From assembly GCF_001457795.1 (NCBI RefSeq), contig NZ_LN898210.1, positions 381,785 through 421,722 on the forward strand: a stretch of DNA of 39,938 bases, written 5' to 3'. The stretch is from Olsenella massiliensis. GTDB taxonomy: Bacteria; Actinomycetota; Coriobacteriia; Coriobacteriales; Atopobiaceae. Made by a program: the position numbers and the translations under genes. Below, in pieces: positions 6,054 to 11,147 of the stretch. Below the pieces are notes generated by a model. That model was not told where the DNA came from. It was given only the letters and a program-made list of their open reading frames with translations, and searched no databases. Position 1 is the first letter of the stretch; every line of letters begins with the position of its first letter.

Positions 6054-6618
6054 GTGCGCAAGGTATGGCAGATTTTTGTCCGCGACCTCAGGCGGCTGCT
6101 CAAAAACCCCGTCGCCATCATGATCGCGATCGGCGTGGCCATCATCCCCTCGCTCTACGCGTGGCTCAACATCCTGGCCAACTGGGACCCCTACGAGAAC
6201 ACCTCCACGGTGCCCGTCGCCGTGACCGTCGAGGATAGGGGCGCCGACGTCGGGGGCCTCGGCCACGTCAACGCCGGCGACATGATTCGCGAGCGCCTCG
6301 AGGAGAACACCCAGCTCGGCTGGACCTTCGTCGACGACGAGGACGAGGCCAGACGGGGCGTGGCGTCCGGCAGGTACTTCGCCGCCTTCTCCATCCCCGA
6401 AGACTTCACAAAACGCCTCTCCGACGTGCTCCACGGCGACGTCGAGAAGGCCCGCGTCGCCTACTACGTGAACGAGAAGGCCAACGCCGTCGCCCCCAAG
6501 GTCACCGACGCGGGATCGACCGCTCTGGAGAGCCACATCTCCAACGAGTTCGTCAACGTCGTGGGCAAGACCGTTACCGAGAGGCTCAAAGGCTTCGCCG
6601 GTCGCACCGCCGCCGTCA
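6054..6618 (+). CDS. YhgE/Pip membrane protein, N-terminal part of interrupted gene
   Basis: The first about 188 residues of a YhgE/Pip-type membrane protein (related to phage infection protein and the ABC-2 permease fold). The start is a GTG at 6054 with GGAAGGGG just upstream. One membrane segment (about residues 18-38, AIMIAIGVAIIPSLYAW) is followed by the family signature NILANWDPYENTS and the extracellular region. It aligns well with the paralog at 8889: NIAGSWDPYGNT and YQNEKANPIA there match NILANWDPYENT and YVNEKANAVA here. Family-like sequence runs to about GFAGRTAA; after that the frame enters unrelated DNA and stops at 6647. The exact junction near 6612-6625 is uncertain. The break is explained by the artefact at 6619-6867; the real gene most likely continues at 6868. 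Confidence 0.85.
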
Positions 6619-6804
6619 GATCATCGTCGCACGCCCTCGGGCATTGATGTCCGGACGCACGGCTAGACTGGACGCAGGGACGGACGACCGTGGGAGGCGC
6701 CATGAGGTTCCTGCATCTTGCGGACTTGCACATGGGGCGGCAGCTGGCCGGCTTCTCGCTGCTGGCTGCCCAACCCCACGCCCTTCCCCCGTCGCTCGAC
6801 CTGC
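6619..6804 (+). pseudogene. sbcD: Misplaced promoter and 5' end of an sbcD exonuclease gene
   Basis: This stretch does not belong to the surrounding yhgE gene. It holds a possible -10 box (TAGACT, 6663-6668), a GGGAGG ribosome site (6692-6697) and an ATG at 6702. From there it reads MRFLHLADLHMGRQL and then AGFSLL, the N-terminus of SbcD, the nuclease subunit of the SbcCD double-strand-break complex (the DLH is a metal-binding motif of the calcineurin-like phosphatase fold). After about 20 codons the match decays: LAAQPHALPPSLDLP where the family would read roughly like LADQRHALxxxLDLA. That is what sequencing errors near a read end would give. It ends directly at the P7-like primer at 6805. 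The left boundary is approximate. Confidence 0.75.
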
Positions 6805-6867
6805 CAAGAAGAGACCGGCAGACGAGTTATGGGCGTGACTGGAGTTCAGACGTGTGCTCTTCCGATC
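6805..6867 (+). other. Illumina TruSeq adapter with P7 and index (artefact)
   Basis: Positions 6835-6867 match 33 consecutive bases of the standard TruSeq index-read adapter (GTGACTGGAGTTCAGACG followed by TGTGCTCTTCCGATC) without a mismatch. Just before it, 6805-6828 resembles the 24-base P7 flow-cell primer with several errors (starts CAAG, has CGGCA and ACGAG in register). Exactly six bases lie between (ATGGGC, 6829-6834), the length of a TruSeq index. In frame the adapter translates as VTGVQTCALPI, a peptide known to recur in contaminated database proteins. This is synthetic DNA, not part of the organism. Confidence 0.98.
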
Positions 6868-8889
6868 GGCACCGTCGCCTCCGCACGCGACGCGCTCTCG
6901 CAGGTCAACGAAACGTGCGGCGGCCTCGGCGAGGGCCTCTCGTCGAGCCTCGACGCCCTCGCGGGCACGCGCACCAAGGCGAACACCTTGGCCGCGCAGC
7001 TCAACGGCGCCCTTTTGACCGGCGCCGCCACCATCGACTCCGTGAGCTCCACCGCCAGCTACGACGTCGGTCGCATCGCGGGCGACGTGGGCTGGGCCCA
7101 GGGCCGCATCGACGCCGCCATCGCCCAGGTTCGCGCGCTCGACGGCGCCACCACGAACGTCCGGACCGGCCTCGAGCGCGTCCGCACCTACACTGTGACG
7201 GCCGCCGGCAACGAATACGCCACGCAGCTCACGACCAAGGTCGACGCAAGCCTTGCGCTCACTGCCGAGCTCTCCGATTCGCAGAGGCGGGCCTTGGACA
7301 GGCTCCAGCAGATCTCCGACGGCCTCAAGGACGCGACGGACGGCGTCAGCGGGCTTTCCAACTCGGTGGGCAGCGCCGTCAGCGAAACCACCGGCGCTCT
7401 CGCCGACCTGCAGAACGACCTCGCCGCCACGACGATGCCGCAGCTCAACGAGGCACTCGACGGCTTCTCGAACACCGGCGGCACGCTCGCGGGCACGGCC
7501 CTATCGCTGCCCGCGATGCTCGCGCAGGCCGACAGCGCCCTGCGTGAGCTCGACGGCATCCTCAACCAGTGCTCGATCGCCCTTTCGACGACCGCGGACT
7601 CCGTGCGCGGCGCCTCCGACAGGATCATGTCCATCTCGGCCGACGTCGCTGCCGTCGAGTCCGCCGAGAGCTTCGACGGCATCAAGGACGCCCTCGACCT
7701 CGACGCCGAGAGCGTCGGCGACTTCCTCGGCTCGCCCGCCCAGCTCGTCAGCATGCCCGTCTACCCCGTCGAGAACTACGGCAGCGGCGTGACGCCCTTC
7801 TACACGAACCTCGCCCTGTGGGTCGGCGGCTTCGTCCTCGTGGCCATCTACAAGCTCGAGGTCGACCGCGAGGGCGTCGGCGACTTCAAGCCTTGGCAAG
7901 GCTTCTTCGGCCGCTGGCTGCTGCTCAACCTCCTCGGCCAGGCTCAGGCCGCGATCTGCTGCCTGGGCGACATCGCGCTCGGCATCCAGTGCGCCTCCCC
8001 CGTCGCGTTCGTCTTTGCCGGCATGGTCGAGAGCTTCGTGTACGTCTTCCTCATCTACGCGCTCTCGGTCGCCTTCAAGCACATCGGAAAGGCGCTCGGC
8101 GTCCTCATCGTCGTGCTGCAGATCCCCGGCGCCTCGGGCCTCTACCCGATTCAGATGCAGCCGGGCTTCTTCCAGGCGCTCAACCCTTGGCTGCCCTTCA
8201 CCTACGGCATCAACGCCATGCGCGAGGCGATCGCGGGCTTCTACGCCAACTACTATGCCCGTAACCTGCTCGTGCTTCTTGCCTACCTGATTCCCGCACT
8301 GCTTGTCGGCGTGACGGCGCGCAGACATCTGCTGAATATCAACAACCTCTTCGACCGCAAGCTCGGCGAGACGGACATGATGATCGCCGAGCGCACCGGC
8401 ATGAGGGACCAGTTCCGCCTGGCCACCATCGTCAAGGCAATCATGGACTCCGACAGCTACCGCGCGACCTTCCTCGCCGGCGCCGCCAACTTCGAGCTGC
8501 GCTACCCGGTGCTCGTGCGCCGCGGATTTGCCGCCCTCGTCGTGGTGCCGCTCGTCCTTCTTGCCCTCATGTTCGCGACCGAGGCCAAGTTTGCCATGCT
8601 CGTGCTGTGGGTTCTGTCGCTCGTGGCCATCTGCGCGTTTCTGATCGTCTGCGAGTACCTGCACGAGCGCGTGCTCGACAAGACGAACCTCTCCAACATG
8701 AGCAGAGACGAGCTCTTTGAGCTGCTCGACGACGAGCTCAAGGCCGAGTTCCTCGCGTTCGCGCCCATCGAGAGGATGCGCCTCGCCGTGGGGCAAGGCG
8801 CATCTAAGCCCGCCGCCGGCGCGACCGCGCGGGCCGCCGAGAAGACCACGACCGTGCGTGGACAGGACCAGAGGGGAGGCGATGAGTGA
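6868..8889 (+). CDS. YhgE/Pip membrane protein, C-terminal part of interrupted gene
   Basis: Resumes the yhgE-like coding sequence straight after the adapter, at GTVASARDALSQ, in a different frame from the N-terminal part. About 673 residues remain: a long alanine/serine/aspartate-rich extracellular region predicted to be helical or coiled-coil (to about 7740), then membrane segments characteristic of the family (APFYTNLALWVGGF appears here as TPFYTNLALWVGGFVLVAI) with the PGASGLYPIQMQPGFFQ motif. Compared with its paralog it carries an extra C-terminal part of about 200 residues with two more hydrophobic segments (near 8521-8575 and 8593-8655) and a charged cytoplasmic tail. No true start codon exists here; any start inside the adapter or sbcD piece is spurious. 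It overlaps the next gene in TGATG. Function in this family is thought to be export-related but is not firmly known. Confidence 0.85.
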   Translation, partial: GTVASARDALSQVNETCGGLGEGLSSSLDALAGTRTKANTLAAQLNGALLTGAATIDSVSSTASYDVGRIAGDVGWAQGRIDAAIAQVRALDGATTNVRTGLERVRTYTVTAAGNEYATQLTTKVDASLALTAELSDSQRRALDRLQQISDGLKDATDGVSGLSNSVGSAVSETTGALADLQNDLAATTMPQLNEALDGFSNTGGTLAGTALSLPAMLAQADSALRELDGILNQCSIALSTTADSVRGASDRIMSISADVAAVESAESFDGIKDALDLDAESVGDFLGSPAQLVSMPVYPVENYGSGVTPFYTNLALWVGGFVLVAIYKLEVDREGVGDFKPWQGFFGRWLLLNLLGQAQAAICCLGDIALGIQCASPVAFVFAGMVESFVYVFLIYALSVAFKHIGKALGVLIVVLQIPGASGLYPIQMQPGFFQALNPWLPFTYGINAMREAIAGFYANYYARNLLVLLAYLIPALLVGVTARRHLLNINNLFDRKLGETDMMIAERTGMRDQFRLATIVKAIMDSDSYRATFLAGAANFELRYPVLVRRGFAALVVVPLVLLALMFATEAKFAMLVLWVLSLVAICAFLIVCEYLHERVLDKTNLSNMSRDELFELLDDELKAEFLAFAPIERMRLAVGQGASKPAAGATARAAEKTTTVRGQDQRGGDE

Positions 8890-11147
8890 TGCGACCCTTC
8901 CTGGCATTTGTGAAGAGGGACGCCAAACACGTCTTCGCCAACGTCATCAGCCTCGTGGTCGTCGTCGGCATGGTCGTGGTGCCGAGCTTCTACGCCTGGT
9001 TCAACATCGCCGGCAGCTGGGACCCCTACGGCAACACCAAGAACCTCAAGGTGGCCGTCGCCAACTCCGACGCCGGCTACACGGGCGACCTCATCCCCGT
9101 CACGCTCAACATGGGCGAGCGCATAACCTCGTCGCTTGCCGAGTCGACCTCCATCGGCTACACCGTGACCACCGAAGAGCAGGCCGTCGAGGGCGTCCAG
9201 AGCGGCGAGTACTACGCGGCCATCGTGTTCCCCGCCGACTTCACGACCAACATGATGAGCGTGCTCTCCAGCTCGTCCACCAAGCCGACGGTGCTCTTCT
9301 ACCAGAACGAGAAGGCCAATCCCATCGCTCGGATCGTGACCAACAAGGCCTCGACCGCCGTCCAGCAGGACATCGATCAGTCCTTCGCCGAGTCCGTGAC
9401 CAACGTGGGCGCGGGCGTGCTCGACGAGCTGACGAGCTACCTCGACGACGACAAGCTCGTCGAGTTCACCGACAAGCTCAACGGCGCCGTGGCCGACGCC
9501 CAGGCGAGCCTCACCGACACGGCCGCGAACACGCGCAGTTTCGCGGGCATCCTCGACTCGACGACGGCGCTTCTTGGCAACGGCGCGTCGGGCGCGAGCG
9601 ACTCCGTCTCGGCCACGGCCGGCGTGGGCGCCGCGCTGCGCGACACCGCGGGCAACGTCCGCACGCTCGGCGACGCCGTGAACGGCGCGACCGACTCCGT
9701 GAACTCCGCGCTCGAGCGCAGCCAGGCGAGCATGGACGACGTGAAAACGTCAATCGACGCCGCCTTCGACCAGGCGGGGTCCGCCGCAGGGTCCTCGAAG
9801 ACCGCGCTCGAGTCCGCCGCGAGCGCCGTAGACGACCAGATCGCCGAGCTCGACAAGCTGCTCGCGGCCCTCGGCGACTCCGACACGCTGGCCCGCACCT
9901 GGTACGAGTCGTGGGACAACGGCGCTGACCCCGGCTTCAGCGGCCAGGTCGGAGTCTCGCGCGACGACGTCTACACCGCCTACGCGACCATCGACGGCCT
10001 GAACAGCAGCGTGACGAGCCTGCGCGCTTCTTTACAGGGCCTCTCCGACGGCCTGCGCAAGAGCGCGGGCGACATCGGCGGCGCCGGCAGCGACGCCGCC
10101 ACGTCAAAGCGGCGGCTCGAGGAGCTCGTCGACGCGGCCGAGGGCGGCATCACGCAGGTCAGGGGCGATTTCGAGGGCGACCTCAAGGACAGCCTGACCT
10201 CGCTCGCCCGTAAGATCGACACGGCCGCGACAGACGCCGACGCCATCGGCTCCTCCATTCAGATGACGCTCGACTCCGTGAACGGCACCGCCGCCGCGGC
10301 CGCCGGTGACCTCGCGAGCGCCAGGGACGGCATCACGACCGCCGCCGACTCGCTCGACGCCGCCGCCGCGCGGCTCGGCGAGCTCAACGGCTCCTTGAGC
10401 GACGCGCTGGCCTCCGGCGACATGGACACGATCCGCGCCATTCTTTCCAGCGGCTCGGCCGCCCTCGGCGATTTTATCTCGGAGCCCGTGAGCGTCGACC
10501 GCCAGGCGATCTACCCCATCGAGAACAACGGCAGCGCGATGGCGCCGTTCTACACCACGCTCGCCATCTGGATCGGCGGCGTCGTGCTCGCGGCGCTCGT
10601 CAGGTGCAACCCGAGCGAGGAGGCCGTCCGCGAGACGGGCGCCAAGCCGCGCCACTCCTACCTCGGGCGCCTCGTGTTCTTCGTGGTCGTCGGATTCGCT
10701 CAGTCGCTTCTGATCCTGCTCGGCGACCTGTTCTTCCTGGGCGTCCAGTGTGCGCACCCCGCGCTCTTCGTGCTCGCGGGGCTCACGGCGTCGCTCGTGT
10801 TCGTGAACGTCATCTACGCGCTCACGGCGAGCTTCGGCGACGTGGGCAAGGCCATCGCCGTCGTGCTCATGGTCATGCAGGTCGCGGGCTCGGGCGGCAC
10901 CTTTCCGGTTCAGATGCTGCCCGAGGGCTTCTTCCAGGCGGCCTACCCGTTCCTGCCGTTCGTCCACTCCGAGAACGCCATGCGCGCGGCGATGTTCGGC
11001 ATCTACGGCGGCGACTTCTGGGTCGAGCTCGCCACGCTCGTGGCCTACCTCGCGCCGGCGCTGCTGCTGGGCCTCGTCCTTCGCAAGCCGGTCGTGCGGC
11101 TGAACGAGTGGGGCGAGAAGAAGCTCGAGTCCACGAAGCTGATGTAG
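8889..11147 (+). CDS. YhgE/Pip family membrane protein, intact paralog
   Basis: A 752-residue membrane protein. One N-terminal membrane segment (about residues 16-36) is followed by NIAGSWDPYGNT, then about 500 residues outside the membrane rich in Ala, Ser, Asp and Thr, with repeated helical segments likely to form coiled coils. Five or six C-terminal membrane segments follow, including MAPFYTTLAIWIGGVVLAAL and the GSGGTFPVQMLPEGFFQ motif. This architecture is that of YhgE/Pip proteins, which share the ABC-2 permease fold. The ATG at 8889 overlaps the previous stop in TGATG and has AGGGGAGG 8 bases upstream; a GTG at 8886 is less likely. The two paralogs are probably co-transcribed and controlled by the divergent TetR protein. 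No ATPase partner is nearby, so the energy source and cargo are unknown. Confidence 0.88.
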   Translation: MRPFLAFVKRDAKHVFANVISLVVVVGMVVVPSFYAWFNIAGSWDPYGNTKNLKVAVANSDAGYTGDLIPVTLNMGERITSSLAESTSIGYTVTTEEQAVEGVQSGEYYAAIVFPADFTTNMMSVLSSSSTKPTVLFYQNEKANPIARIVTNKASTAVQQDIDQSFAESVTNVGAGVLDELTSYLDDDKLVEFTDKLNGAVADAQASLTDTAANTRSFAGILDSTTALLGNGASGASDSVSATAGVGAALRDTAGNVRTLGDAVNGATDSVNSALERSQASMDDVKTSIDAAFDQAGSAAGSSKTALESAASAVDDQIAELDKLLAALGDSDTLARTWYESWDNGADPGFSGQVGVSRDDVYTAYATIDGLNSSVTSLRASLQGLSDGLRKSAGDIGGAGSDAATSKRRLEELVDAAEGGITQVRGDFEGDLKDSLTSLARKIDTAATDADAIGSSIQMTLDSVNGTAAAAAGDLASARDGITTAADSLDAAAARLGELNGSLSDALASGDMDTIRAILSSGSAALGDFISEPVSVDRQAIYPIENNGSAMAPFYTTLAIWIGGVVLAALVRCNPSEEAVRETGAKPRHSYLGRLVFFVVVGFAQSLLILLGDLFFLGVQCAHPALFVLAGLTASLVFVNVIYALTASFGDVGKAIAVVLMVMQVAGSGGTFPVQMLPEGFFQAAYPFLPFVHSENAMRAAMFGIYGGDFWVELATLVAYLAPALLLGLVLRKPVVRLNEWGEKKLESTKLM

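Follow-up and report, generated by a model that had tools for sequence, protein, structure and literature searches.

Illumina library sequence and a displaced gene fragment interrupt a membrane protein gene in the Olsenella massiliensis assembly

A gene for an ABC-2-type membrane protein is split by 265 bases of false sequence, at positions 6603-6867 of the window, in the Olsenella massiliensis assembly GCF_001457795.1. The window is the whole stretch of DNA that was analysed, 39,938 nucleotides of contig NZ_LN898210.1 (positions 381,785 to 421,722), and coordinates without a contig name refer to it. That the false stretch arose as some sort of artefact, whether in the library or in the assembly, is practically certain. 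It very probably consists of leftovers of a mate-pair library, two bad read ends having been joined inside the gene by gap-closing or scaffolding software. The features of the locus are:

6054-6602, + strand: 5′ part of the ABC-2-type membrane protein gene, the real left flank; 183 codons, matching positions 8-122 of the 347 in the Pfam ABC2_membrane_3 profile
6603-6803, + strand: displaced second copy, 201 bases long and 94% identical, of the start of an sbcD-like gene with its upstream region
6805-6828, + strand: degraded Illumina P7 primer, 18 of 24 bases matching
6829-6834, + strand: index ATGGGC, equal to ATTGGC with one error
6835-6867, + strand: TruSeq index-side adapter, the first 33 of its 34 bases exact and the last T missing
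6868-8889, + strand: 3′ part of this gene, out of frame with the 5′ part and forming the real right flank; positions 156-340 of the 347 in the Pfam ABC2_membrane_3 profile

Results

Adapter, index and P7 primer

The feature at 6805-6867 is synthetic library sequence and not biology. The exact match of 33 bases at 6835-6867 to the TruSeq oligo has a chance of about 3 × 10^-21 at a given place under the base composition of the window. The P7 match at 6805-6828 is ungapped with 6 mismatches, the runner-up place in the window having 9, and 6 mismatches or fewer are expected at one given place with a chance of about 4 × 10^-7. P7, index and adapter stand in the order and at the spacing of TruSeq contamination, the first two being degraded, and the mismatches grow outward from 0/33 in the adapter through 1/6 in the index to 6/24 in P7. 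An earlier note, made from the letters of the window alone, had reported the exact adapter, the six bases ATGGGC before it, a degraded 24-base P7 before those and an increase of errors towards P7, and each of these holds in the counts above. It had also regarded the peptide VTGVQTCALPI, encoded by the adapter, as a false protein start. The peptide lies inside a 723-residue open frame at 6718-8889, and, as read from the sequence, the index error changes ATT to an in-frame ATG at 6829. No paper mentioning VTGVQTCALPI was found in the literature searched.

The assembly as a whole (1,818,711 bases in 13 contigs) was searched with the 33-base adapter, and 3 places were found at up to 3 mismatches against 0 with the reversed control. 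The two sister sites, both on contig C13 of this genome (G000), are:

C13:880493-880555: error-free 24-base P7, ATTGGC, exact adapter; 13 T before P7
C13:345129-345191: error-free 24-base P7, ATTGGC, adapter with 1 mismatch; 11 T before P7

Flow-cell oligos carry a T linker, which the runs of 13 T and 11 T before these P7 copies fit. ATTGGC is the reverse complement of GCCAAT, which is TruSeq index 6 and is read on the TruSeq adapter strand. In PMC7500414, index primer 6 shows GCCAAT and not its reverse complement, which backs the index number and not the orientation. By comparison with the two error-free copies, ATGGGC in the window is most readily taken for ATTGGC carrying a single error, and the speculative link of the earlier note between this index and the reverse complement of GCCAAT is thus backed from within the same genome. 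Its wider claim, that the assembly holds synthetic sequence at this locus, is likewise sustained by the order of adapter, index and P7 and by the sister copies.

Library sequence was also seen in other forms. In the region C13:343630-346691, a second, degraded adapter copy (7/34 mismatches) lies beside the P7, index and adapter, together with what by eye is a degraded Nextera junction (16/38 mismatches ungapped, against a background of 17-20); several bad reads may have been pieced together at this site. The P5 primer follows 11 T at C2:194-222, near the start of contig C2, and precedes the start of an apparent thymidylate kinase gene, a label given from reading.

Displaced fragment before the P7 primer

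The earlier note had confined the synthetic sequence to 6805-6867. That part is indeed synthetic, but the foreign stretch begins earlier, between 6603 and 6618, its left edge lying anywhere within these positions, and the false sequence is therefore larger than the adapter region alone. The other copy of the fragment at 6603-6803 lies at C13:778464-778664, where it belongs to an intact open reading frame of 393 residues. The first part of this frame matches the Pfam family Metallophos (calcineurin-like phosphoesterases), and the adjoining frame on C13 looks, in our estimation, like SbcC. The gene is labelled putatively sbcD-like because of this match and this neighbour.

Relative to the C13 copy, the fragment has 2 mismatches at 6613 and 6617, 0/116 at 6618-6733 and 10/70 at 6734-6803, so that its last 70 bases contain 10 of the 12 mismatches. 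A rightward read that deteriorates at its end would look like this, and the 7 errors in the 30 bases of index and P7 resemble the deteriorating end of a read leaving the adapter leftward. The two error-rich ends meet at 6804.

Split membrane protein gene

The two parts of the gene, which we presume to be YhgE-like, lie in different frames with the 265 bases between them. In a search of 41 genomes, each part had matches in 31, this genome among them, and the best relative is 69% identical in the 5′ part. Spacing was measured on the best-scoring 19 of the 30 relatives with a match. The parts lie in one open frame at 16 of these 19 loci, 35-42 codons apart (42 codons, n = 11; 39, n = 1; 35, n = 4). 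For the other three (G019, G028 and G014), hit coordinates put 129, 129 and 132 nt between the parts, or about 42 codons; at locus L159 the longest frame is another open reading frame, and the weak matches in L166 and L169 were taken for a neighbouring paralogue. Since relatives hold both parts in one frame at this distance, roughly 126 real bases (about 42 codons) are absent and 265 false bases stand in their place.

Among the lower-scoring relatives, G037 has its 3′ part divided between two frames (581 and 322 residues), with the break at query residue 90 and thus away from the present join. In G005, another of them, the strong match to this part starts at residue 131, which falls at position 29 of its contig. 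Directly after the split gene, an unbroken paralogous ABC-2-type gene (753 residues) occupies 8886-11147 of the window. Weaker second hits beside the first suggest that the same gene pair may be present in several relatives.

Traces of a Nextera mate-pair library

With up to 3 mismatches allowed, the genome contains 34 Nextera transposon ends, whereas the reversed control yields 0. Of the 34, 22 form 11 head-to-head abutting pairs with 0-4 mismatches over 38 bases, one pair being perfect. Such a 38-bp head-to-head junction is characteristic of Nextera mate-pair libraries. PMC11575248 gives CTGTCTCTTATACACATCT only as the start of Nextera-type sequences. Because of the abutting junctions elsewhere in the assembly, the reads of this genome most likely came from an Illumina Nextera mate-pair library with a TruSeq-type adapter carrying index 6. 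The protocol is described in PMC6298255, where tagmentation with junction adapters and bead capture of junction fragments are followed by ligation of a TruSeq indexed adapter; PMC4831475 likewise describes a Nextera mate-pair library. At C12:192900-193400, a short insert occurs together with a perfect junction and a degraded copy of the read-1 adapter. Within C13:276900-277400, two mate-pair junctions begin 122 bases from each other.

Relatives and other assemblies

The 33-base TruSeq adapter was found in none of the 40 relatives at up to 3 mismatches. Nextera ends, at the same threshold, were absent in 36 of the 40 and present in G012 (19), G039 (6), G028 (6) and G020 (3), while the reversed control gave one match, in G021. 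Measured from contig starts, 8/19 of the ends in G012 and 3/6 in G039 lie no more than 110 bases in. One abutting pair is found among the 6 ends of G028, whose assembly may share the junction problem on a small scale.

Among the records of genome_contigs, at least 120 stretches contain the exact 33-mer; the matches listed are a part of the total and not a random sample, and the window's own record is not among them, since such records may be left out. The listed loci contain 123 adapter copies, of which 120 are no further than 250 bases from the end of their stretch.

Discussion

Origin of the false stretch

A read from the 3′ part of the gene, running leftward, would have run off its short insert and on through adapter, index and P7, gathering more and more errors, and a second read running rightward from the sbcD-like locus would likewise have ended in errors. 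If such mate-pair reads were left untrimmed and passed to scaffolding or gap closing, a gap in the membrane protein gene could have been bridged by the two read ends. The joining of two reads, with software as the agent, is the most likely course of events. The adapter copy in the window lies well inside its 421,722-base contig, with about 33 kb between it and the nearer end, and gap closing accounts for this position. In PMC5552949 and PMC6182551, which describe workflows of this type, MiSeq mate-pair libraries were used, trimmed and untrimmed data were assembled and GapCloser was employed, the Nextera Mate Pair kit being named in PMC5552949.

Some observations count against a join of two reads. 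The left edge of the false stretch is uncertain. The changes in the displaced fragment are biased to C (10/12), which is not matched by the index and P7 errors read outward (3/7), and no Nextera end was found within the window itself at up to 3 mismatches.

The same class of artefact could instead have come from one chimeric library molecule, formed by intermolecular ligation and sequenced as such, which excludes a software join of two reads just as the latter excludes it. The derivation of the sbcD-like fragment from a different contig is as expected of such a molecule. The rise of errors towards 6804 from both sides is, however, unexpected in a single read, and since library molecules end with P7, genomic sequence ought not to come after it; a chimeric molecule is accordingly considered unlikely. 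That the strain itself carries inserted adapter-like DNA, derived perhaps from a laboratory construct, might be argued from the internal position of the stretch, as opposed to the copies near ends that predominate among the matches listed. Such an insertion is scarcely credible and was rejected, since P7, P5, T runs and Nextera junctions also occur elsewhere in the assembly, the oligo shows a gradient of errors along its length and the displaced fragment is present elsewhere with an intact sbcD-like reading frame. Chance similarity has a negligible probability: a 13-base core of the adapter gave 1 match in the window at up to 2 mismatches against a shuffle mean of 1.33 and is uninformative alone because this count is at chance level, but 33 exact bases followed outward by index and P7 in the correct order are not, and the exact match rules it out.

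Consequences for users of the assembly

The locus has no biological meaning and is a warning for users of the assembly, into which at least 3 TruSeq-type sites and 11 mate-pair junctions have been built. At 6603-6867 the membrane protein gene is falsely split, a spurious second sbcD-like start is placed at 6702 and an open frame is created whose false N-terminus includes VTGVQTCALPI. Anyone who infers gene loss, pseudogenes or fusions from this genome should check them against the artefact sites. Returning to the joining of untrimmed reads as the preferred explanation, we think it quite likely in general that closure of mate-pair assemblies with untrimmed reads can bury adapters, along with plausible displaced gene fragments, deep in long contigs. 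If this is true, screening of contig ends misses the buried adapters, and falsely split genes could reach the databases.

Comparison with known contamination

The locus resembles the known Illumina adapter contamination of public assemblies in that an exact TruSeq adapter is fused to genomic sequence, as in the at least 120 stretches listed. In contrast to those stretches, where the copies are mostly near ends, the copy in the window is internal and adjoins a displaced gene fragment. The genome also resembles assemblies with untrimmed Nextera mate-pair junctions through its 11 abutting pairs of transposon ends, whereas the feature at 6805-6867 shows the outer TruSeq and P7 end of a library molecule and not its junction.
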